A stretch of DNA of 7,611 nucleotides, taken from NCBI GenBank assembly GCA_014730055.1, contig WJIV01000153.1, positions 1 through 7,611 of the forward strand, read 5' to 3'. The position numbers and the translations under genes are program-made. This DNA is from Candidatus Bathyarchaeota archaeon. GTDB lineage: Archaea > Thermoproteota > Bathyarchaeia > TCS64. Of this stretch, positions 1 to 7,611 are shown piece after piece. The stretch's first letter is position 1; each line of letters starts with the position of its first letter. Below the pieces are notes generated by a model that was not told where the DNA came from, made no database searches, and saw only the letters and a program-made list of their open reading frames with translations.

Positions 1-139
1 CCAGTGAGTCCCTACCTTGTCCGCATCCTAGATCTAGTATGGTTCCCTTTGGCTCATAATTTCTGAAGAATGAGATCAGTGCTGGGTAGGGAGAGCCGAA
101 GTGATCTGGTTGTCTATAGTGTTTATCATATACTGTCAC
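1..139 (-). CDS. Class I SAM-dependent methyltransferase, N-terminal part (cut by window edge)
   Basis: The minus strand is open from a GTG at 139-137 to the window edge, giving 46 codons. The translation starts MTVYDKHYRQPDHFGSPYP and reaches ILDLGCGQGRDSL at residues 34-46. The latter is methyltransferase motif I, the glycine-rich loop that binds S-adenosylmethionine in the Rossmann-like fold. The YDKHY...FG.PYP lead-in is, from memory, typical of small soluble methyltransferases of this class, so the GTG start fits. The frame stays open upstream to a TTG near 192, but that extension has no family-like sequence. The substrate cannot be told from this fragment. The SdpI-like gene lies just upstream on the same strand, with a 66-nt gap, so they may be co-transcribed. 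Confidence 0.8.
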   Translation of the reverse strand, partial: MTVYDKHYRQPDHFGSPYPALISFFRNYEPKGTILDLGCGQGRDSL

Positions 140-205
140 ATATGGAATAATGAATGATAACTCAAATACCCTGGGAATATTGAGAACAATCAATTAGTTT
201 TTTCC

Positions 206-853
206 TTAATTCATTCTTTCCATTGTTATTTGTTTGTATTTCAGGTAAGAATAGATGATAACATAGATTCCTGAAACCAACACGGGCACCATAGCCAACC
301 CCAGAGACAACCAACCGCTAAAAAACACACCAGCAATAGCCAATAAACCAGATACCCTGAAAAGCAGACCCCCGACACAATGCGTCTCCCTCCAAACCTC
401 CTCGCTACTCAAAGTCCAAGGTGTCCTGATACCAAGAAACCAGTTGATCTCCACCTCCCCAAGAATGCAGCCTAATCCATAGAAGAGAACCCCCAACATT
501 GGAATAAGCAATCGCAGCAAGTCAAACCTGTAACCGAGATTCCAAGCAGTTGATAACCCAAAGACATAGGACATGTAAAAAGTGAACAACAGGATGAACC
601 ATTCATAGGATTCCATCATCTTCTCCTTAGAAGCCTTGGGGTCTATTCTGGGTAAGACTATGAAAAAGGGAATTAGAACCACTTCTATTACTGGTATGAG
701 GAATAACCCCAGGGTTTTAGAGCCGTAGCCGTCTGCTTCTCCCTTTATGTTCCAGTGGATGGCTATACGATCAGGCATCCTTGGGTATAGAATTATTCCT
801 ATTAGAAACTGAATTATTATCAGAAGGATGGATAACGCAATTGCTCTTCGCAT
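206..853 (-). CDS. SdpI/DUF1648-family integral membrane protein
   Basis: This 215-residue protein is very hydrophobic, with about six predicted membrane segments (roughly residues 5-23, 48-67, 85-103, 112-131, 165-180 and 183-203). The stretch MPDRIAIHWNIKGEADGYGS at residues 26-45 is the DUF1648 signature. WFLGIRTPWTLSSEEVWRET at 138-157 is the SdpI-family C-terminal motif. In Bacillus, SdpI gives immunity to the SdpC toxin and acts as a signalling receptor. For archaeal homologues the role is unknown, so immunity here is only an inference from the family. I chose the ATG at 853; a TTG one codon earlier (856) is less likely. No Shine-Dalgarno is seen; the rc sequence CGTATACG at 889-896 is a possible promoter element. 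No toxin gene lies next to it; the neighbours are a methyltransferase (downstream) and the HepT-MntA pair (upstream). Confidence 0.88.
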   Translation of the reverse strand: MRRAIALSILLIIIQFLIGIILYPRMPDRIAIHWNIKGEADGYGSKTLGLFLIPVIEVVLIPFFIVLPRIDPKASKEKMMESYEWFILLFTFYMSYVFGLSTAWNLGYRFDLLRLLIPMLGVLFYGLGCILGEVEINWFLGIRTPWTLSSEEVWRETHCVGGLLFRVSGLLAIAGVFFSGWLSLGLAMVPVLVSGIYVIIYSYLKYKQITMERMN

Positions 854-911
854 CAATATTTATGTAAATGGTTAAAGGAAAAAGATTACGTATACGATCA
901 TATAGCAGAAT

Positions 912-927
912 AATCGATGATTTTATC
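912..927 (+). promoter_or_regulatory. Intergenic 16-bp motif, copy 1 (orphan)
   Basis: The sequence AATCGATGATTTTATC is identical to copy 3 (3144) and differs by one base from copies 2 (2041) and 4 (7536). Unlike the others it has no plus-strand start codon at the expected distance: around 951 there is only non-coding sequence. It lies 58 bp upstream of the minus-strand SdpI-like gene but in the opposite orientation. It may drive an unrecognised small RNA, be a leftover promoter of a lost gene, or be a regulator site for the minus-strand gene. Confidence 0.55.
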
Positions 928-937
928 ATCATTTTAT

Positions 938-1008
938 ACTCGCCAATTTATTACCAAAAGTCTTGACTTAGTTGCTACATTCCTAAAATTAGACATAGTT
1001 TGGCGAGT
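938..1008. repeat. 9-bp inverted repeat with 53-nt spacer
   Basis: ACTCGCCAA at 938-946 and its exact reverse complement TTGGCGAGT at 1000-1008 enclose a 53-nt A/T-rich spacer. The arms are G/C-richer than their surroundings. They sit in the non-coding gap between SdpI and HepT, 10 bp after motif copy 1. They could be paired regulator sites, ends of a tiny non-autonomous element, or the stem of an RNA. No clear target-site duplication flanks the arms. The rest of the 184-bp gap shows no gene. Confidence 0.35.
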
Positions 1009-1037
1009 TAATGAATAGTACGTATTTTATATTTTCT

Positions 1038-1460
1038 CTATTTTTCTATATATTTGTGGATTTGTTTCTCGAATTCTAATATATCTTCAATTCTGGTTTT
1101 GATTATTACGAGAAACCTTTCATCATCTACTTCACCATACCTGTGCCCCAGAAGGTTTCTGAAACGGGCCATATCCTCCAGTCTATTTGCAAGGTTAATC
1201 TCAATGACTTTTTCTTCTCCTAGGATCCTGAACATCTGACTATAGCTCTCTGCTCTACTGAATCCTTGAACGGATATGATGTGATTTGCTATATCAAAAG
1301 TGGCCTCCAGAATCTCAAGAAGGCTGAACTTTGCTGCCTGAACATCCTTATAGCTGTTGATGAATTCCTTTTTGGGTATATCCTTGTATTCTTTCAGAAA
1401 GTTGATGTTGCGCTCTATTGTATCAAATCTCTCCTTTATGATGCCCTTGTCAACTTTCAT
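1038..1460 (-). CDS. hepT: HepT-like HEPN-domain toxin (DUF86)
   Basis: This is a 140-residue, mostly helical protein of the HEPN/DUF86 family, normal length for HepT. The family hallmark RX4HXY is intact at residues 101-108 (RNLLGHRY: Arg101, His106, Tyr108). In studied HepT proteins this motif is the RNase active site, and its tyrosine is AMPylated by the partner MntA, which silences the toxin. The ATG at 1460 was chosen because it gives the standard N-terminus (MKVDKGIIKERFD). The frame extends 13 codons upstream to an ATG at 1499, deep inside mntA, which is unlikely. The gene overlaps the end of mntA by 11 bp (1450-1460), so the two are translated from one message, antitoxin first. Function is inferred from motif and pairing, and is well supported. 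Confidence 0.9.
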   Translation of the reverse strand: MKVDKGIIKERFDTIERNINFLKEYKDIPKKEFINSYKDVQAAKFSLLEILEATFDIANHIISVQGFSRAESYSQMFRILGEEKVIEINLANRLEDMARFRNLLGHRYGEVDDERFLVIIKTRIEDILEFEKQIHKYIEK

Positions 1461-1884
1461 TTCGTAGCCTCGTGCTCCTGTACATATCGTAAGCCTCATG
1501 AAAGGGCTTTATATCCAGGTACATGGAGACCGCTTTAGCCTCGAACTGCGCCCTCTTTCTCTCGTCTCTGGATATTATTAACTCTCCCTCACTTATCACG
1601 CGGTACTGAAACCTGGGGTTTCTGTCATTAAGGATCCTTATGTCTATCACCCGTTTAAGCCCAGTCTCTTTCTCAATTTCCTTTGCCAGCGCCTCTGGGT
1701 ATAGTGCTTCTTGTTTGTAGCAGTCCTCTAGAAGTAGTCCAACATCAAGGTCGCTGTCCTCCCGTGCGTATCCTTTCACCGATGACCCGTATAGATAAGC
1801 GACTATTACCTCTTTATGGGGCTCCAGTGCCCTTCTTAAATCCAGCTTAATTTTAGATAAATTAAGTTCCTCTGATAGGGCCAT
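1450..1884 (-). CDS. mntA: MntA-like minimal nucleotidyltransferase antitoxin
   Basis: This 144-residue protein has the pol-beta-type nucleotidyltransferase signature GSX10DXD: Gly33-Ser34 and Asp45/Asp47 in GSSVKGYAREDSDLD. A likely third metal-binding aspartate is Asp81 in RVIDIRIL. MntA proteins transfer AMP from ATP to the HepT active-site tyrosine and so neutralise it; the overlapping hepT gene supports this role. The ATG at 1884 gives the usual family length and has a TATA-like AATATTAAAG about 30 nt upstream (1911-1920, minus strand). The frame stays open to a TTG at 1977, which would add 31 residues of unfamiliar sequence. That TTG has its own TATA-like box near 2001-2008 at leaderless spacing, so the longer form cannot be excluded. 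The C-terminal tail (residues 104-144) is basic and probably helical. Confidence 0.88.
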   Translation of the reverse strand: MALSEELNLSKIKLDLRRALEPHKEVIVAYLYGSSVKGYAREDSDLDVGLLLEDCYKQEALYPEALAKEIEKETGLKRVIDIRILNDRNPRFQYRVISEGELIISRDERKRAQFEAKAVSMYLDIKPFHEAYDMYRSTRLRNES

Positions 1885-1983
1885 CTCAAATACTTGTATT
1901 CTTGAAGTAACTTTAATATTTCTAAACCTGAATGCTGGAATGCTTTGCGCATCGAAAAAAACGTTTATTTTATCCAAAAAGGA

Positions 1984-1993
1984 AATACGTATT
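1984..1993. promoter_or_regulatory. Palindrome AATACGTATT upstream of mntA
   Basis: A perfect 10-bp palindrome lies in the divergent region between mntA and the Fe-S gene. The core TACGTATT recurs at 1019-1026, just past the end of hepT, and TACGTA recurs at 887-892 before the SdpI-like gene. It could be an operator for the toxin-antitoxin operon, but short A/T-rich palindromes also arise by chance. Confidence 0.25.
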
Positions 1994-2040
1994 CTCTAAG
2001 TATATTATTTAGTTGAAATAATATCCAATTTATGCAGTCT

Positions 2041-2056
2041 AATCGATGGTTTTATC
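2041..2056 (+). promoter_or_regulatory. Intergenic 16-bp motif, copy 2, before the Fe-S gene
   Basis: AATCGATGGTTTTATC differs at one base from copies 1 and 3. It ends 34 nt before the ATG at 2091, 11 nt further than copies 3 and 4. A separate TATA-like GTATAACATA at 2061-2070 sits about 26 nt before that ATG, so here the motif may be an upstream activator or regulator site rather than the TATA box itself. Confidence 0.6.
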
Positions 2057-2090
2057 CTCAGTATAACATAATTGTATACTTGATGAAAGA

Positions 2091-3134
2091 ATGGGTGAAG
2101 AGTTTGGACTTCTAGCTGATGCATTAGGAAGACTACCAAATGGGTTCGCTAGAACAAAATCAGGGATAGAACTTGAAATATTAAAAAGAATGTTCAATGA
2201 AACAGAAGCAAAACTAGCCTCAACCCTTACAAGAGACTACGAAACAATACAAACAATATCAGAAAGAAACCAAATGAAACCTCAAAAAATTGAAGAAATG
2301 CTAAAAGAAATGTCTAAAAAAGGAATGGTTTGGACAACAACAGATAAAAATGAAACCTGTTATCGTCTTGCTCCATTTGTAGTAGGTGTTTATGAATCAC
2401 ATCTAGGTTCTATGGATCACAGCTTCGCACACATGGTAGAGGACTATTTTCAAGAAGGAGGGTTCGAAGCCATCATGCAGCCCCTACCAAGCATCCACAG
2501 AGTAGTACCCGCACAATCTGCAGTAAAAACAGAATGGGTCCTCCCTTATGATGATGTAAAAAAGCTGCTCATGGAAAGTAAAGTGTTCCGAGTAAATGAT
2601 TGCATATGCAGGACTCAACAAGAGTATATTGGCAGAAAATGCGATTTTCCGATTCATAACTGTATGACTTTCTCTAAACATGAACGTGAGCCTCGACCAG
2701 GAGATGTTTCAAAGGAAGAGGCGTTAGCTTTGCTTGATGAAACAGAGAAAATTGGGCTTGTACATACTGTGAGTAATGTGGTTGAGGGTGTGAACTACAT
2801 TTGTAATTGTTGTGGGTGTTGTTGTGGGATTTTAAGAAGTTTAACTGAGTTTGGGTATGAGAACTCGGTAGCTGCTGCTAATTATTATTCAGTAATTGAT
2901 GATGATGTTTGTATTGGTTGTGGGGTATGTGAGAAGCGATGTCAGGTCAAGGCGATTAGTATGGTTGATGGGAAACCTGTGATTGATCTGAGTAACTGTA
3001 TTGGATGTGGCTTGTGTGTCACTGGATGTCCGGTTAATGCTGCCAAACTATTATTGAAGCCTGAGGATGAGAGAATTGAGCCCCCTCGAGACTTCATTGT
3101 GTGGGAGGAGAAACGTATCGAAAACAGAAAATAA
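2091..3134 (+). CDS. Cysteine-rich 4Fe-4S protein with N-terminal winged-helix-like region
   Basis: This is a 347-residue soluble protein. Residues about 25-95 look like a helix-turn-helix/winged-helix region (YETIQTISERNQMKPQKIEE...). Residues 168-191 hold a first cysteine set (Cys171, Cys173, Cys184, Cys191). Residues 238-245 hold CNCCGCCC, six cysteines in eight residues. The C-terminus has two classical ferredoxin CX2CX2CX3C motifs (Cys274-284 and Cys303-313, the second followed by Pro), enough for two 4Fe-4S clusters. From memory, proteins of this layout are common in anaerobic archaea and bacteria but lack a firmly known reaction. A redox sensor or an electron-transfer partner are both possible. 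Codon choice shifts from A-ending in the first half to G/T-ending after about 2690. The ATG at 2091 is the first standard start in frame. No Shine-Dalgarno is seen. Confidence 0.9.
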   Translation: MGEEFGLLADALGRLPNGFARTKSGIELEILKRMFNETEAKLASTLTRDYETIQTISERNQMKPQKIEEMLKEMSKKGMVWTTTDKNETCYRLAPFVVGVYESHLGSMDHSFAHMVEDYFQEGGFEAIMQPLPSIHRVVPAQSAVKTEWVLPYDDVKKLLMESKVFRVNDCICRTQQEYIGRKCDFPIHNCMTFSKHEREPRPGDVSKEEALALLDETEKIGLVHTVSNVVEGVNYICNCCGCCCGILRSLTEFGYENSVAAANYYSVIDDDVCIGCGVCEKRCQVKAISMVDGKPVIDLSNCIGCGLCVTGCPVNAAKLLLKPEDERIEPPRDFIVWEEKRIENRK

Positions 3135-3143
3135 TAGAACCAT

Positions 3144-3159
3144 AATCGATGATTTTATC
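3144..3159 (+). promoter_or_regulatory. Intergenic 16-bp motif, copy 3, before the VOC gene
   Basis: AATCGATGATTTTATC is identical to copy 1 and ends exactly 23 nt before the ATG at 3183, the same spacing as copy 4. The TTTTATC part is centred about 27 nt before the ATG, the position of a TATA box for a leaderless message. The first 11 bases form a dyad, AATC-GAT-GATT. A T7 run at 3173-3179 follows and could also end transcription of the Fe-S gene. Confidence 0.65.
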
Positions 3160-3182
3160 CATTTGTTTTATGTTTTTTTAGT

Positions 3183-3560
3183 ATGACTCAATTCAATAGA
3201 GCATACACTTTCATCTATTACAAGGATGTTAAAGAGGCTGAACCATTTTACAGAGACCTTCTTGGCTTAAGGCTAGAATATGAAAGCGATTGGGTAACCC
3301 GTTTTTGGGTTACTGATGATTATGCCATAGGTGCAGTGCAATCAGGGAAGGGCTTCTTAGAAGCTATGGAGGACAAGCCAGTTATCCTTTGTATTGGGTT
3401 GAAGGATGAGGCGGATATATTCGCATTATACGATAAGCTGAAGGATGCCGGGGTTAAGATGCATACTAGTATGGTGGAGCTTCGTGAAACTGAGGGAAGA
3501 ATCTTCTTTTGTGAAGACCCTGAGGGATATATTGTTGAAATAGTACAAACTCCAAAATAA
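3183..3560 (+). CDS. VOC-superfamily protein (glyoxalase / bleomycin-resistance fold)
   Basis: This 125-residue protein has the paired beta-alpha-beta-beta-beta layout of the vicinal oxygen chelate fold. The first half contains VKEAEPFYRDLLGLRLEYES (residues 16-35) and the second ends with DPEGYIVEIVQ (112-122). The closing glutamate (Glu119) matches the usual last metal ligand. The histidines normally found at the first strand of each half appear to be replaced (YTFIYYKD near residues 8-15 and VILCIGLKD near 67-75). It may therefore bind a metal poorly, or act as a ligand-binding or resistance protein rather than a glyoxalase. The substrate is unknown. It follows the Fe-S gene on the same strand but has its own motif-containing promoter, 48 nt away. 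The start is an ATG without Shine-Dalgarno. Confidence 0.88.
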   Translation: MTQFNRAYTFIYYKDVKEAEPFYRDLLGLRLEYESDWVTRFWVTDDYAIGAVQSGKGFLEAMEDKPVILCIGLKDEADIFALYDKLKDAGVKMHTSMVELRETEGRIFFCEDPEGYIVEIVQTPK

Positions 3561-3574
3561 CTTAACCACAATAA

Positions 3575-3688
3575 CCAGCAAACCCTCTTTTTAATGAGTT
3601 CCAAGGATATGGAGATGAGTTTGAGGACGAGGATATGTTCCTTGAGGAGATGATCCTGTTCCTCGATGAAGAGGAAGAGAGTACTTGA
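3575..3688 (+). pseudogene. Acidic ORF remnant without a start codon
   Basis: An open frame runs from just after a TAA at 3572-3574 to a TGA at 3686-3688. Its end is strongly acidic (FEDEDMFLEEMILFLDEEEE). It looks like the genuine C-terminus of a protein, but there is no start codon before the ATG at 3635, which would leave only 17 residues. I do not recognise the family. It may be the tail of a gene lost when the neighbouring nucleotidyltransferase module arrived or decayed, or it may be chance. Confidence 0.25.
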
Positions 3689-3707
3689 AGCACGGAGATC
3701 CTATTGC

Positions 3708-4244
3708 TTAGGTTATCTTTTCTAGTATCTCGAGGGTGTTTTCTTTCTTCGCCTCCATTTTTAACCTGGATATGTCTATCTGGGTGTTTCTGATTATTGA
3801 CTTGATATCTTCCTCATCTTTGTATGCTTTCCTCGGGTCCCTAGTGGCTTTAATCATTCTTAGTTTTGCGAGTATGAGGTCTTTAGGAGTCTGGATGAAT
3901 GTTGGATCTCCAAGGATGGTGCTTGCTCTCTTTTTTAAGGGGTCCGTGACGAAGATGAGGTCAACGCTGTATGGGGTCACTGTGTCCATTAGTGTTGCAA
4001 TATTGCACTCTAACTCGAGGGCCTGCTCCAGTCTATGATCGTTGACATCGAGTCCTGCCTCTCATAGGGCCCGGTTTAAGCGTGATATGTCTTCTGTTCT
4101 TGTCTGGATTATTATATCGATGTCTGTGGTTGTTCTGGGTCTTCCGTAGTAGCTTACTGCTAGGGCTCCGGTGAACATGTAGTCCTGCTGGGATTTGTTT
4201 AGCTCTTTTATGAGTCGCTTCACAAGTCCTTGAAAGGTATCCAG
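3708..4244 (-). pseudogene. AbiEii/DUF6036-like nucleotidyltransferase broken by an in-frame TGA
   Basis: Read from 4244, the frame gives TGALAVSYYGRPRTTTDIDI (residues 25-44). This matches the active-site pattern of AbiEii/DUF6036-type nucleotidyltransferases: a Gly-rich loop with Asp41 and Asp43. A single TGA follows at codon 61 (4064-4062), in the stretch LNRAL-stop-EAGLDV. The same frame then continues without break for 117 codons to the TAA at 3710. It includes a likely third catalytic aspartate (YSVDLIFV) and the family-like PTFIQTPKDLILAKLRMIKA. Total length would be about 178 residues, normal for the family. The start is unclear: there is no ATG. CTG at 4244 lies 9 nt after the GAGGAG at 4259-4254, and a GTG at 4223 is the alternative. 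One substitution (for example AGA or CGA to TGA) explains the break. Sequencing error or stop-codon readthrough are other explanations. Confidence 0.75.
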
Positions 4245-4245
4245 T

Positions 4246-4422
4246 CTAGTCTTCTCCTCTTATCCTCAATCGGAGTTCTTGAAGAAGCTCCTTCTCGGTG
4301 ATATCCGGGTTTTCTGCCCTTATTCCGTCAGCACTGACTCTTACCACTGTATCAGAGATCTCTATTGCTATTCGAAGTTTTTCATCCGGTGCTAGTTCCT
4401 CAATACTCAACTCAAGAATCAC
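4246..4422 (-). CDS. 58-residue partner of the nucleotidyltransferase
   Basis: This small acidic protein begins MILELSIEELAPDEKLRIAI and ends with ITEKELLQELRLRIRGED. The pattern of an 'E.L.P.EKLRIA' helix, an 'AxGIRAENPD' turn and a closing 'TEKELLQEL' helix is, from memory, shared by short proteins encoded immediately before AbiEii/DUF6036-type nucleotidyltransferases in many bacteria and archaea. It is read from a GTG at 4422; a TTG at 4410 is an alternative. The stop (TAG, 4248-4246) falls at the start of the nucleotidyltransferase frame, so the two were translationally coupled. It is intact although its partner is broken. Its role is unknown; by position it could be the antitoxin or regulatory subunit of a two-gene module. 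Confidence 0.65.
   Translation of the reverse strand: MILELSIEELAPDEKLRIAIEISDTVVRVSADGIRAENPDITEKELLQELRLRIRGED
4254..4259 (-). promoter_or_regulatory. Shine-Dalgarno GAGGAG for the broken nucleotidyltransferase
   Basis: GAGGAG lies inside the end of the 58-residue gene, 9 nt before the CTG at 4244. It is one of the few convincing Shine-Dalgarno sequences in a window of mostly leaderless genes, as expected for the second gene of an operon. It supports a start at or near 4244, perhaps a former ATG or TTG changed to CTG. Confidence 0.45.
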
Positions 4423-4795
4423 TAAGCTCGTATCCGCAAATAATTGTTTTTATTACAGATTAGTATAGCCTGGATTCAAGAGTAAATTTATTTATACTCT
4501 GGTTAAGGAGGAAGATATCGAATACGATTTATGTTCTTTGAGAATGAGATATTATTACCTATCTTATTCATAAAATAGATTTAGGTGAACAAAATTATAC
4601 AGTAACGCCAAACCTAAAACAGGTAGAATAATTCTCCAAAGAAATACTAAAACTATTAATATAAATTAATTAACCGATAACTCAACATTTATTATATAAT
4701 GTATAATTTAAATAAAAAAAATATGAGATATTATTTTTAATACTAAATAATATTTTTCAGAAATTTAATGAGAATTTATATTAGTAGTAAATTAA
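4423..4795. other. A/T-rich stretch without a convincing gene
   Basis: This 373-bp stretch contains no long open frame. Its first part holds TATA-like sequences for the minus-strand small gene (GTATAAATA reading down from 4497; GTAATAAAAAC near 4446-4456). The middle (4501-4570) has a short coding-like piece, GGAGGAAGATATCGAATACG onward, but stops follow quickly. From about 4650 to 4795 it is extremely A/T-rich and carries the hairpin at 4728-4753. Confidence 0.6.
4728..4757 (+). terminator. A/T-only hairpin followed by a short T run
   Basis: ATATTATTT at 4728-4736 pairs perfectly with AAATAATAT at 4745-4753 around an 8-nt loop, and TTTT follows directly. It has the shape of a terminator, but no plus-strand gene ends just before it and A/T-only dyads are frequent in such DNA. 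Confidence 0.22.
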
Positions 4796-4960
4796 TTTGG
4801 TAATTTTAGTCTGGTAAGACGTATTAAAGAGCATGGTAGTATTTTTCATCCTAATCTATGTAAGGCACTCAGAGTCTTGGAAAGATACCGTAGTAGAGAC
4901 CTATTATCTGAAGATGAGCTTGAGACAGCAATTAGGAGCCTAATCTCGGGATCATTGTAA
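4796..4960 (+). pseudogene. Small coding-like ORF without a standard start
   Basis: After an in-frame TAA at 4793-4795, the frame is open to TAA at 4958-4960. It encodes a protein-like helical sequence including RRIKEHGSIFHPNLCKALRV and LSEDELETAIRSLI. No ATG, GTG or TTG occurs near its beginning; CTG at 4811 is the only candidate. A TATA-like TTTATATT at 4775-4782 lies about 32 nt before that CTG, so a leaderless non-standard start is conceivable. I do not recognise the family. It is either a small gene with a degenerate start or the remnant of a longer one. Confidence 0.4.
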
Positions 4961-5131
4961 TGTGTAGACTTATTGGAACAGAAAACCCGTGTAATCTCAA
5001 GTATGGTACGACGTACATTACATACGATGATGCACTAATTCTTAAAAGTAATTGAGGTAGTAGGAATGTTAATTGAAATAGGAGACGCTACGGCGGACTG
5101 GGAAGAGAGATTCAGATGGCTAACTCCATAG
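4960..5131 (+). pseudogene. Two overlapping coding-like fragments, probably one frameshifted ORF
   Basis: An ATG at 4960 overlaps the preceding TAA and opens a 31-residue frame (MCRLIGTENPCNLKYGTTYI...) ending at 5055. In the next frame, an open stretch from 5039 to the TAG at 5131 encodes LKVIEVVGMLIEIGDATADW and more. Shifting frame near 5040 would join them into one protein of about 56 residues. I do not recognise it. With the fragment before it, this looks like the worn-down end of an older operon. Confidence 0.3.
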
Positions 5132-5176
5132 CAACTAGCTCCCAGAAACAATCCCCTTTATTATTTGTTTCATTAT

Positions 5177-5842
5177 TTATTTCTCAACGTCATAAATTGT
5201 CCCGCCTAAAATCATCAAAAGTATCGGAACAAACATGAAGGCAGCAAGGGGCTCAAGCAACCTAATCAAAGCCTGATTATTCATACCTGCAACACTCAAA
5301 ATAAGCATAGATCCAGATACTAAACTATAAGCAGTAATTGAAAAAGGAAATAACCATATCAGCCAGTACTTTGCCCTGTGATTAAGATTTTTGCGTAACC
5401 AATCAACGGGGTTATCAATTCTGGTAGCAAGAACAGAAGCCATTAACCCAAGGTCAATAACCCAGCCACCGCCAACCAACACCTGCATCACTGAAAGAAA
5501 AAACAGGATCAATGCACCATTTTCTCTTTGAACATATCTCACGGACCATAAGATGACGAGAATACTTGATATGGTAGCTAATATCCCTGTAACTAGAAAG
5601 TTGGGTATGATGGTTACCGCGTAATATGTGAAATCTTCATGCATCAAGTAGTCAGGCCCAATGGTACTGATCACAATGCCACCTGTAGATATATTCCCTT
5701 GAAGTACCTCAAAGATTCCCGCAATTATCCCTGTCAAGCCACAGAGAGTCCCAAAAGCTGCCACTACCAGCCTCGTACCCTCCAAGCCACCTATATTGAA
5801 GTCTCCATCAGTATATCGAAAAGGCATATACGGAAAAATCAT
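5177..5842 (-). CDS. Polytopic membrane protein of unknown function (about five helices)
   Basis: This 221-residue protein has strongly hydrophobic segments at about residues 25-47, 76-101, 109-139, 159-186 and 196-216. The N-terminus (MIFPYMPFRYTDGDF) and the loops at 48-72 and 140-158 are soluble. I see no known catalytic or transporter motif and do not recognise the family. The ATG at 5842 is the first standard start. The ATG at 5827 is a real alternative, because the TATA-like TAATATTA (5861-5854, minus strand) sits about 30 nt before it and only about 15 nt before 5842. It is divergent from the zinc-ribbon gene, with 79 bp between starts, so the two may share regulation. Confidence 0.75.
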   Translation of the reverse strand: MIFPYMPFRYTDGDFNIGGLEGTRLVVAAFGTLCGLTGIIAGIFEVLQGNISTGGIVISTIGPDYLMHEDFTYYAVTIIPNFLVTGILATISSILVILWSVRYVQRENGALILFFLSVMQVLVGGGWVIDLGLMASVLATRIDNPVDWLRKNLNHRAKYWLIWLFPFSITAYSLVSGSMLILSVAGMNNQALIRLLEPLAAFMFVPILLMILGGTIYDVEK

Positions 5843-5890
5843 TAATCCGGATTTAATATTATGGAAAATCAATTATTATTTTTTGAATAA

Positions 5891-5900
5891 AATTATTAAC
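5891..5900 (+). promoter_or_regulatory. TATA-like box of the zinc-ribbon gene
   Basis: AATTATTAAC is centred about 26 nt before the ATG at 5922, the spacing of a leaderless archaeal promoter. Confidence 0.35.
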
Positions 5901-5921
5901 TTATTTTGCAGTCAGTACTTT

Positions 5922-6080
5922 ATGGTAAAATTAGGTAAATGTCCTGAATGTGAGATGGTTCTAGAGGATTCGGATATTGAGGAGATTCACTTCAAAGGTA
6001 CAGTGGTAAGGCACATCGCTTATAGGTGTAGACACTGTGATACAATAATTGGGTTCTCAAGTCATAACCGGTTTTCATAG
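5922..6080 (+). CDS. 52-residue zinc-ribbon protein
   Basis: This is a small protein with two CXXC knuckles, CPEC at residues 7-10 and CRHC at 36-39, 25 residues apart. That is the layout of a zinc ribbon binding one Zn2+. It starts at an ATG (MVKLGKCPEC), which puts the first knuckle right after the start as in many archaeal mini-zinc-ribbons. The frame is open further upstream (to an ATG at 5796), but that stretch runs into the divergent membrane-protein gene and is low-complexity, so I reject it. Such proteins often act as nucleic-acid or protein adaptors. Nothing here fixes a role beyond zinc binding. A 14-bp tandem repeat overlaps the stop codon. Confidence 0.72.
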   Translation: MVKLGKCPECEMVLEDSDIEEIHFKGTVVRHIAYRCRHCDTIIGFSSHNRFS

Positions 6081-6094
6081 ACCAGTTTTCATGA
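6067..6094 (+). repeat. Imperfect 14-bp tandem repeat over a stop codon
   Basis: ACCGGTTTTCATAG (6067-6080) is followed directly by ACCAGTTTTCATGA (6081-6094), with three differences. The first copy contains the last codons and the stop of the zinc-ribbon gene. It is probably a local duplication. The remaining intergenic DNA up to 6308 shows only short chance frames. Confidence 0.4.
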
Positions 6095-6276
6095 CCTTTC
6101 CAGGTTTAGTGAGGGAATGATATATTCCAATATTAAGCGTTTGACTGTCCATTATAGTTTAGAGGATACCATAATGTTATTTTGCTATTAAATAATCTCA
6201 TAAAGCTTACATGGAAATATTTTAGGCTGGAAGAGAAATCTGGATTTGTTATATACATGAACCAAGGACTCTGCTA

Positions 6277-6287
6277 AAACTTATTCA
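6277..6287 (+). promoter_or_regulatory. TATA-like box of the DUF4760-like gene
   Basis: AAACTTATTCA is centred about 27 nt before the ATG at 6309 and so supports that start over the TTG at 6291. Confidence 0.3.
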
Positions 6288-6308
6288 ACCTTGATCCCAT
6301 ATCAGTAC

Positions 6309-6806
6309 ATGGTCTCTATGGAATACATGCTGATGTCAGCACTAGTTTTAGCACTCATTGCGGTAGTGTACCATCTAGGTAGCAAAATTATAGTTTTGAG
6401 ACGAAGCCAAGTAAGAATAGATCAGATCAGATTCATCAATGACTCTGCTGTTGATGAGGCTCTCACCGAGATTCTCTGGGTATGGGATTGGACTGACTTT
6501 GATGACTACTGGAAGAAATTCAGCCCTAGGGTAAACCCAGAAGCCAATAAAAAAAGGAGAATAGCCAGGAACTATTATGTCGCCCTCGCTGAGATGGTGA
6601 GAAAAGGTGACCTTGAGATAGAGTTCCTGTATAAGCTGAATCCATCAGGGGTAACCAGGTACTGGGAAAAGATAGGCCCCATAGCCCACGAATTTAGGAA
6701 GAGAAACAACTACCCAGACTACCTTGAACCCGTAGAGTACCTTGCCACGAGGATAGACGAGTTTAGGAAAAACCTCGGTATCACAGGCCCAAATCAAGTC
6801 AAATAA
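6309..6806 (+). CDS. Single-pass membrane protein, DUF4760-like
   Basis: This 165-residue protein has one N-terminal membrane helix (about residues 5-24, LMSALVLALIAVVYHLGSK), then a charged helical domain. The domain contains DEALTEILWVWDWTDFDDYW (roughly 49-68), ARNYYVALAEMVRKGDLEIE (roughly 85-104) and RYWEKIGPIAHEFRK (roughly 116-130). The 'NYY..LAEMVRKGDLE' helix followed by a long W/R-rich helix resembles DUF4760 proteins, which have no known function. That assignment is from memory of the pattern and needs a profile search. The ATG at 6309 is preferred over an in-frame TTG at 6291 because of promoter spacing. The basic residues after the helix suggest the C-terminal domain is cytoplasmic. 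It precedes the ICMT-like gene by 150 nt. Confidence 0.72.
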   Translation: MVSMEYMLMSALVLALIAVVYHLGSKIIVLRRSQVRIDQIRFINDSAVDEALTEILWVWDWTDFDDYWKKFSPRVNPEANKKRRIARNYYVALAEMVRKGDLEIEFLYKLNPSGVTRYWEKIGPIAHEFRKRNNYPDYLEPVEYLATRIDEFRKNLGITGPNQVK

Positions 6807-6926
6807 CAGATATGATTTTTGTGAAACGAAATTAGAAACAAGGCATATTTAAATAGAATTCAGACTCTTTGAGATTTATTCATTAAACTTAGAAATGTTA
6901 AATATTTATAATCCAAGCGGCAGAGT

Positions 6927-6936
6927 CATAAATTCA
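6927..6936 (+). promoter_or_regulatory. TATA-like box of the ICMT-like gene
   Basis: TCATAAATTC is centred about 26 nt before the ATG at 6957, at leaderless spacing, so this gene probably has its own promoter. Confidence 0.35.
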
Positions 6937-6956
6937 ATTAACAATAATAGATTAGA

Positions 6957-7457
6957 ATGTCTAATGTAGGGGTTCCTGAATGGAGCTTTTCTTGGAGGGA
7001 AATAGTTTCATCTGGCTTGCTGGTAACTCAGATACTTCTGACTTTTTTCACTTACAATAACTTGGGATATGATAATATTGCGAATGCTGGTTGGGGGGTT
7101 ATGACTTTTTCAGCGATCTTTGGCTGGTTACCAATCTTAACTTTAAAATCAAAGGGAAATGTGCCAAAAGGAAAAAGCTATACACAGACGACTGCCCTAG
7201 TGGATACCGGCATTTACTCAATAATAAGGCACCCTCAATACTTTGCCGGGGTTTTAATGAGCATTGCACTGGCTCTAATTTCCCAGTACTGGATTGTAGC
7301 TATTCTAGTCCTACCAGTCTCAATTACCATTTATCTCGATTCTTTAAGAGAGGACAAGAGGTTAATTGAAAAATTTGGAGAGGATTATGTCGAATATATG
7401 GGAAGAGTGCCAGGATTTAATATTTTTATAGCATTACTACGAAAAATTATTAGATAA
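6957..7457 (+). CDS. Isoprenylcysteine carboxyl methyltransferase-like membrane methyltransferase
   Basis: This 166-residue integral membrane protein has hydrophobic segments at about residues 17-34, 44-62, 95-110 and 111-128. The family signature is complete: LVDTGIYSIIRHPQYFAG (81-98), with the RHPQY SAM-binding motif at 91-95. It is followed by REDKRLIEKFGEDYVEYMGR (131-150), with the conserved Glu and the FGxxYxxYxxRVP ending. Eukaryotic ICMT methylates prenylated C-terminal cysteines; prokaryotic relatives methylate lipids or unknown membrane substrates with S-adenosylmethionine. The archaeal substrate is unknown, with lipids a reasonable guess. The ATG start is clear and no Shine-Dalgarno is seen. 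Length is normal for the short prokaryotic form. Confidence 0.9.
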   Translation: MSNVGVPEWSFSWREIVSSGLLVTQILLTFFTYNNLGYDNIANAGWGVMTFSAIFGWLPILTLKSKGNVPKGKSYTQTTALVDTGIYSIIRHPQYFAGVLMSIALALISQYWIVAILVLPVSITIYLDSLREDKRLIEKFGEDYVEYMGRVPGFNIFIALLRKIIR

Positions 7458-7477
7458 AAAAAAGGTTTTAGAACGCA

Positions 7478-7483
7478 TTTTTT
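7478..7483 (+). terminator. T6 run after the ICMT-like gene
   Basis: Six Ts about 20 nt after the stop codon, without a stem-loop, fit the oligo-U terminators used by archaeal RNA polymerase. The signal is short and could be chance. Confidence 0.3.
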
Positions 7484-7535
7484 CATGACATATACTTATG
7501 CTCTTGCTCGTATAATTCTGACAGGTAAATACTAA

Positions 7536-7551
7536 AATCGATGAGTTTATC
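7536..7551 (+). promoter_or_regulatory. Intergenic 16-bp motif, copy 4
   Basis: AATCGATGAGTTTATC differs from the identical copies 1 and 3 at one base. It ends exactly 23 nt before the ATG at 7575, the same distance as copy 3 to its gene. Confidence 0.6.
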
Positions 7552-7574
7552 ATTAGTTTGTTCTAGTTTTATGC

Positions 7575-7611
7575 ATGATTAACGTAAACACTCTTTCATA
7601 CAAGAGATATC
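7575..7611 (+). CDS. Start of an unidentified gene (cut by window edge)
   Basis: An ATG at 7575 opens a frame that runs to the edge of the window (MINVNTLSYKRY, 12 codons). By itself this is far too short to call. The support is positional: a copy of the 16-bp motif lies exactly 23 nt before it, as for the VOC gene. An ATG four bases earlier (7571) meets a stop after three codons. Nothing can be said about function. Confidence 0.45.
   Translation, partial: MINVNTLSYKRY

Follow-up and report, generated by a model that had tools for sequence, protein, structure and literature searches.

What is the function of a short word that recurs four times between the genes of one archaeal contig, always in the same orientation? 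The question is raised by contig WJIV01000153.1, analysed here from position 1 to 7,611 (this whole stretch of 7,611 nucleotides is called the window), and by a 16-bp motif of the two-block form AATCGATG-NN-TTTATC. The motif is a real element, probably regulatory, and is described here for one contig. The reading that we favour, with a confidence evenly balanced between acceptance and doubt, is that it serves as the operator for a single sequence-specific transcription factor, which a Bathyarchaeota-like archaeon would use at a limited number of promoters. A preliminary description of this DNA had presented the motif as a special promoter or the mark of a regulon, a promoter reading that is partly supported. 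A 16-bp element with candidate targets provides a concrete handle on gene regulation in uncultured archaea, as well as a way to ask whether iron-sulfur (Fe-S) proteins that carry a winged helix have a regulatory role.

The repeated motif

The four copies are located at 912..927, 2041..2056, 3144..3159 and 7536..7551, all of them on the plus strand and outside recognised genes. Copies 1 and 3 are identical to AATCGATGATTTTATC, copies 2 (AATCGATGGTTTTATC) and 4 (AATCGATGAGTTTATC) carry one mismatch each, and all four match the two-block form without mismatch. The block AATCGATG is present exactly four times in the window, each time followed by NN-TTTATC. Another match at 1959, with three mismatches, was rejected as a fifth copy.

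The existence of four near-identical plus-strand copies, as first described, was borne out by a rescan and by shuffled sequences. When up to three mismatches are allowed, 0.21 matches are expected, and five were reached in none of 200 shuffles, the largest number being 2. The biggest family of 16-mers related by at most one mismatch has four members in the window; in 100 dinucleotide shuffles it had one (20 times), two (79 times) or three (once). Since a 16-mer family of four was absent from these 100 shuffles, a chance origin is excluded. In the noncoding part of the window, a first-order Markov model predicts 2.5e-5 two-block matches on the plus strand and 2.9e-5 on the minus strand, and about 23% of the 16-mers of the window fall wholly outside gene calls. 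The placement of all copies on the same strand is weak evidence if taken alone (1 in 8).

The statement that every copy lies outside genes holds for recognised genes, while copies 1 and 2 fall in short, mechanically listed minus-strand frames (771-932, 53 aa, and 2039-2197, 52 aa), which are taken as spurious. Over 32 nt including the 16-mer, copy 2 is 81% identical to copy 1, and copies 3 and 4 are 72% identical to it. The flanks beyond the 16-mer are mostly unrelated and no longer repeat unit was seen in them. The AATC-GAT-GATT dyad, proposed earlier as a possible recognition site, is not upheld as the conserved feature: it is whole in copies 1 and 3 and is broken by a single change in copies 2 and 4. 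Full dyad symmetry, usual for dimeric regulators although not required of all of them, is thus present in two of the four copies, and the palindrome ATCGAT is the only palindromic part kept in all.

Position of the copies relative to gene starts

Positions are counted with the ATG as +1. The motif, its non-random occurrence, its positions and the separate TATA-like box at the Fe-S gene are observed, while leaderless initiation, protein binding and the sign of regulation are inferred. Upstream regions were tabulated in 16 rows, three of which are not anchored on a start codon (that of MntA is off by one codon, and 5854 and 5836 in the membrane gene are no starts); the plus-strand rows used in the argument all are. 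The 20 nt upstream of the seven plus-strand start choices were free of Shine-Dalgarno-like words (GGAG, GAGG, AGGT, GGTG, GTGA or GGGG), and such a word was found in only one of the 16 rows, that of the operon-internal HepT start at 1460. Judged by these sequences, the genes of the plus strand appear to be transcribed without a leader, from promoters whose A/T-rich box spans -29 to -24. This slot agrees with the position of archaeal TATA boxes, which are centred about 27 nt before the start (PMC5316973).

Copies 3 and 4 end 23 nt before the ATGs at 3183 (VOC gene) and 7575, respectively, so that TTTATC occupies -29 to -24 in both cases. The distances and the occupation of the TATA slot of two leaderless-type starts were therefore described correctly from the beginning, but the gene at 7575 is unverified because its frame runs for 12 codons and then leaves the window, which is probably an entire metagenome contig. 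In the remaining plus-strand genes the slot holds TATAAC (Fe-S gene), ATAAAT (methyltransferase gene), TTATTA (small protein at 5922) or CTTATT (DUF4760 gene), the last two being weak boxes. Since other words fill the slot in these genes, the motif is more than the TATA box of the organism, and the view that it marks a non-random subset of promoters is sustained. Minus-strand starts such as those of the SdpI gene (TTTTCC) and of the membrane gene at 5872 (AGTTAA) lack a clear box.

The other two copies are placed differently. Copy 2 ends 34 nt before the ATG of the Fe-S gene at 2091, spanning -50 to -35, with its TTTATC at -40 to -35. The TATA slot of this gene is filled by a separate TATA-like box (TATAAC, 2062..2067, plus strand), as the preliminary description had already remarked, and the motif is set 11 bp, about one helical turn, upstream of that slot. 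Copy 1 lies 58 nt from the ATG at 853 of a minus-strand gene and is reversed with respect to it; no recognised co-oriented gene follows. With these two cases, the idea of a uniform special promoter is not supported. The same sequence stands above chance ahead of several genes, two of the four copies (2 and 3) preceding a recognised co-oriented gene.

Operator, core promoter or other element

A core-promoter element should hold a fixed distance to the start, a constraint that does not apply to the site of a regulator. Three observations favour an operator over a core promoter: copy 2 is offset by 11 bp, it retains TTTATC even though the Fe-S gene also has TATAAC, and copy 1 is reversed relative to the nearest start. 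To these can be added that the TFB recognition element (BRE; TFB, transcription factor B), defined by two adenines at -34/-33 (PMC4158304), does not appear at copies 3 and 4, which read AT there. Sites of TrmB-type regulators in archaea have been described on BRE/TATA as well as to either side of it, and repression or activation follows from their position (PMC4158304); by analogy, these precedents fit an operator.

Such an operator could act in different ways at different promoters. The site overlies the BRE and TATA positions both at the VOC gene and before the frame that follows copy 4. A protein bound there would compete with TATA-binding protein (TBP) and TFB and cause repression; alternatively, it might make up for a poor BRE by recruiting TFB. 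Activation is the likelier effect at the Fe-S gene, where the site is one helical turn up and just upstream of a separate TATA box. The target of copy 1 may be the divergent SdpI gene or a transcript that is not annotated.

Several points weigh against the operator. There are four sites only, one without a clear target and another before an unverified gene, and the 11-bp offset rests on a single observation. Apart from ATCGAT the dyad is not kept, while the sites described in PMC4158304 and PMC9426492 are mostly palindromic. The upstream and downstream sites of the precedents differ in place from copies 3 and 4, which sit on BRE/TATA; the TrmB site of malE is an exception. Motif-bearing DNA of a relative was not found in the searches reported below. 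Moreover, copy 2 could use its own TTTATC as a TATA box, giving a leader of about 11 nt.

This last point belongs to a possible, though distinctly less probable, explanation, in which the motif is itself a special core promoter: AATCGATG would be a lineage-specific extended BRE for a particular TFB paralogue and NN-TTTATC its TATA box, with that short leader at the Fe-S gene and an unannotated small RNA driven by copy 1. At two starts TTTATC takes up the -29 to -24 slot, in which A/T-rich boxes stand in the other genes of that strand; this agrees with it, as do the constant two-base gap between the blocks and the common plus orientation. In addition, multiple archaeal TBPs and TFBs give some promoter specificity (PMC7289017). 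However, the slot of the Fe-S gene is taken by another TATA-like box, and AATCGATG exceeds the BRE of 3-5 bp given in PMC7289017. The region following the would-be transcript start of copy 1 matches neither Rfam nor tRNA models, and its folding is poorer than that of most shuffles (950-1037, z +1.70, 193 of 200 shuffles at least as good), and copy 1 was rejected as a small-RNA promoter.

A function outside transcription is improbable. The motif could be a short repeat dispersed among the intergenic regions, or a site located there that helps to organise the chromosome or to mark a strand; the location of all copies on one strand, the similar spacing of the first three (gaps of 1129 and 1103 bp, then 4392 bp) and the absence of a recognised co-oriented gene after copy 1 are in line with this. 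On the contrary, three of the four copies are followed by an ATG at 23-34 nt, with one of the three starts unverified, and the flanks are largely unrelated, no longer unit being seen. Finally, chance likeness of A/T-rich upstream regions is hardly credible, since TTTATC alone is indeed frequent (10 exact matches, both strands together) but 0.03 plus-strand occurrences of AATCGATG are expected in noncoding DNA of the window against the 4 found, and no family of four arose by shuffling.

Occurrence of the motif beyond the window

The pattern AATCGATGNNTTTATC was counted in two other archaeal phyla. In the phylum of a Lokiarchaeota genome it was present in 29 of 227 genomes (33 places, at most 3 per genome; reversed control, 27), a set that includes 10 genomes of which none carries it. 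For the phylum of a Thermoplasmatales genome, 389 genomes out of a larger group were covered, of which 11 have the pattern (11 places; control, 10). The motif is at background in these 616 genomes. A Methanobrevibacter genome has one place versus one for the control. An exact 16-mer scan of genome contigs yielded no Bathyarchaeota or Thermoproteota title among the matches listed (at least 118 stretches, 7 of them archaeal by title, some titles being incomplete or no more than 'bacterium'); this absence is weak, the scan being well short of complete, with 5 of the 19 exact copies of one metagenome-assembled genome (MAG) among the matches listed. Because of the background level in two phyla and the lack of a Bathyarchaeota-titled stretch among those matches, the motif is not regarded as a general archaeal element.

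The MAG just mentioned belongs to Terriglobia, and its five listed copies, which represent one repeated stretch, were rejected as unrelated. At these loci (L005, L039, L049, L088 and L118) the 16-mer is found close to the end of a contig, within a GC-rich stretch whose flanks are shared between loci, and it has 19 places in the whole genome; the repeat is perhaps a mobile element. Matches to AATCGATGRKTTTATC-N12-40-ATG in viral contigs were taken as chance, all 43 stretches holding the motif in a stop-free frame of at least 72 codons, and no relatives of four window proteins were confirmed among the viral contigs.

Upstream of homologues of the Fe-S gene, nothing above shuffles was detected in L166, L168, L170 and L180, a poor test with 4 usable loci out of 20 (L164-L183) and the closest homologue, L164, left out. 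With respect to the literature, no papers on such a motif were among the matches listed for AATCGATG in archaea, and no Bathyarchaeota operator or promoter motif was found among the papers listed from the open-licence literature searched.

Genes beside the copies

The gene after copy 2 (2091..3134, plus strand) encodes a protein with a predicted N-terminal winged helix (residues ~26-93) and a C-terminal 2[4Fe-4S] ferredoxin domain (~265-322). It is 70% (P0006), 63% (P0026) and 57% (P0117) identical to Bathyarchaeota-named proteins, 58% and 57% to named bacterial proteins of Zixiibacteriota (P0064) and Stahlbacteria (P0100), and 71-99% to the metagenome proteins P0001 to P0005; in 147 genomes related to one of Lokiarchaeota, the best match reaches 56%. 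Among solved structures (best 60 of 83 matches), the top matching stretches lie within the ferredoxin part and are therefore uninformative on the winged helix. The family is large, with 5,690 matches at E 0.001 of 7,998 candidates scored, many of which may share the ferredoxin domain only; up to at least 15 matches per genome were counted in 147 genomes, and source names vary (RnfB, ferredoxin, PreA).

The gene after copy 3 (3183..3560, plus strand) encodes a VOC protein of glyoxalase fold (PF00903, 42 bits versus a cut-off of 20.6). The gene start nearest copy 1 is that of a DUF1648/SdpI membrane protein (206..853, minus strand). Among its best 120 matches, organism names are given only for Bathyarchaeota, with P0300 at 52%, and for Hydrothermarchaeota, at 46% and 45%. 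The methyltransferase has two matches with an organism name, both bacterial (52 and 50%), and does not point clearly to a host. Taken together, the nearest named relatives of the window's proteins, as protein matches rather than a tree, probably point to a Bathyarchaeota-like archaeon.

By its location and predicted fold, the winged-helix Fe-S protein is a candidate autoregulator. A bolder proposal, which we consider very improbable as a whole, is that a family of redox-sensing factors of Bathyarchaeota and other prokaryotes fuses a winged helix to a 2[4Fe-4S] ferredoxin domain, and that in this organism it reads AATCGATG-NN-TTTATC, regulating itself together with a small regulon, the sign switching with the position of the site relative to TATA. 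The redox or stress regulon suggested in the preliminary description is unproven, with four copies in all and an unverified gene after copy 4: two of its possible targets are the Fe-S and VOC proteins, and that of copy 1, if any, would be the DUF1648/SdpI membrane protein.

Other features of the window

A strong plus-strand hairpin at 936-1012 starts 10 nt past copy 1 and 29 nt beyond the end of the minus-strand HepT gene. It has a 9-bp stem, ACTCGCCAA (938-946) paired with TTGGCGAGT (1000-1008), and a folding energy of -17.7 kcal/mol that none of 200 shuffles equalled (z -3.75), with no Rfam or tRNA match. It would not be transcribed from copy 1, because it is too close at the expected spacing, and it is possibly the 3'-end structure of the mntA-hepT transcript. 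The latter corresponds to a MntA/HepT type VII toxin-antitoxin pair (1038-1884, minus strand), both members scoring above the NCBIfam cut-off.

On the same strand, 3708-4223 comprises two same-register frames split by an in-frame stop which, inspected by eye, are jointly nucleotidyltransferase-like; 3708-3989 has no Pfam match, and the gene is probably decayed. The region 4440-4830 is very A/T-rich and, by eye, without a convincing gene.

Comparison with known systems

At copies 3 and 4 the motif resembles the canonical BRE-TATA core promoter in placing an A/T-rich box about 27 nt ahead of putative leaderless starts. It differs in its upstream block, an 8-bp fixed word that is not A-rich, and, at the Fe-S gene, in lying outside the TATA slot. 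OxsR of Haloferax volcanii (CGGnCGnGCG) is an archaeal winged-helix regulator whose activating or repressing effect correlates with where its site stands with respect to BRE/TATA (PMC9426492). However, its site is a CG-rich semipalindrome and its switch is cysteine-based, whereas the motif of the window is A/T-rich and asymmetric. TFB-RF1 of Pyrococcus furiosus, which activates weak-BRE promoters by recruiting TFB (PMC5937170, PMC4158304), is comparable by description, not by site.

The operators of the TrmB family (TGM TATCAC-N5-GTGATA; TACT-N3-AGTA) are inverted repeats of other sequence, in contrast to the motif, which lacks a full dyad (PMC4158304); in a comparison by eye, the 16-mer itself contains neither form given in that text. 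Like the motif, these operators are short and are located at, upstream or downstream of BRE/TATA across promoters, and autoregulation has been reported for some members of the family (PMC4158304).

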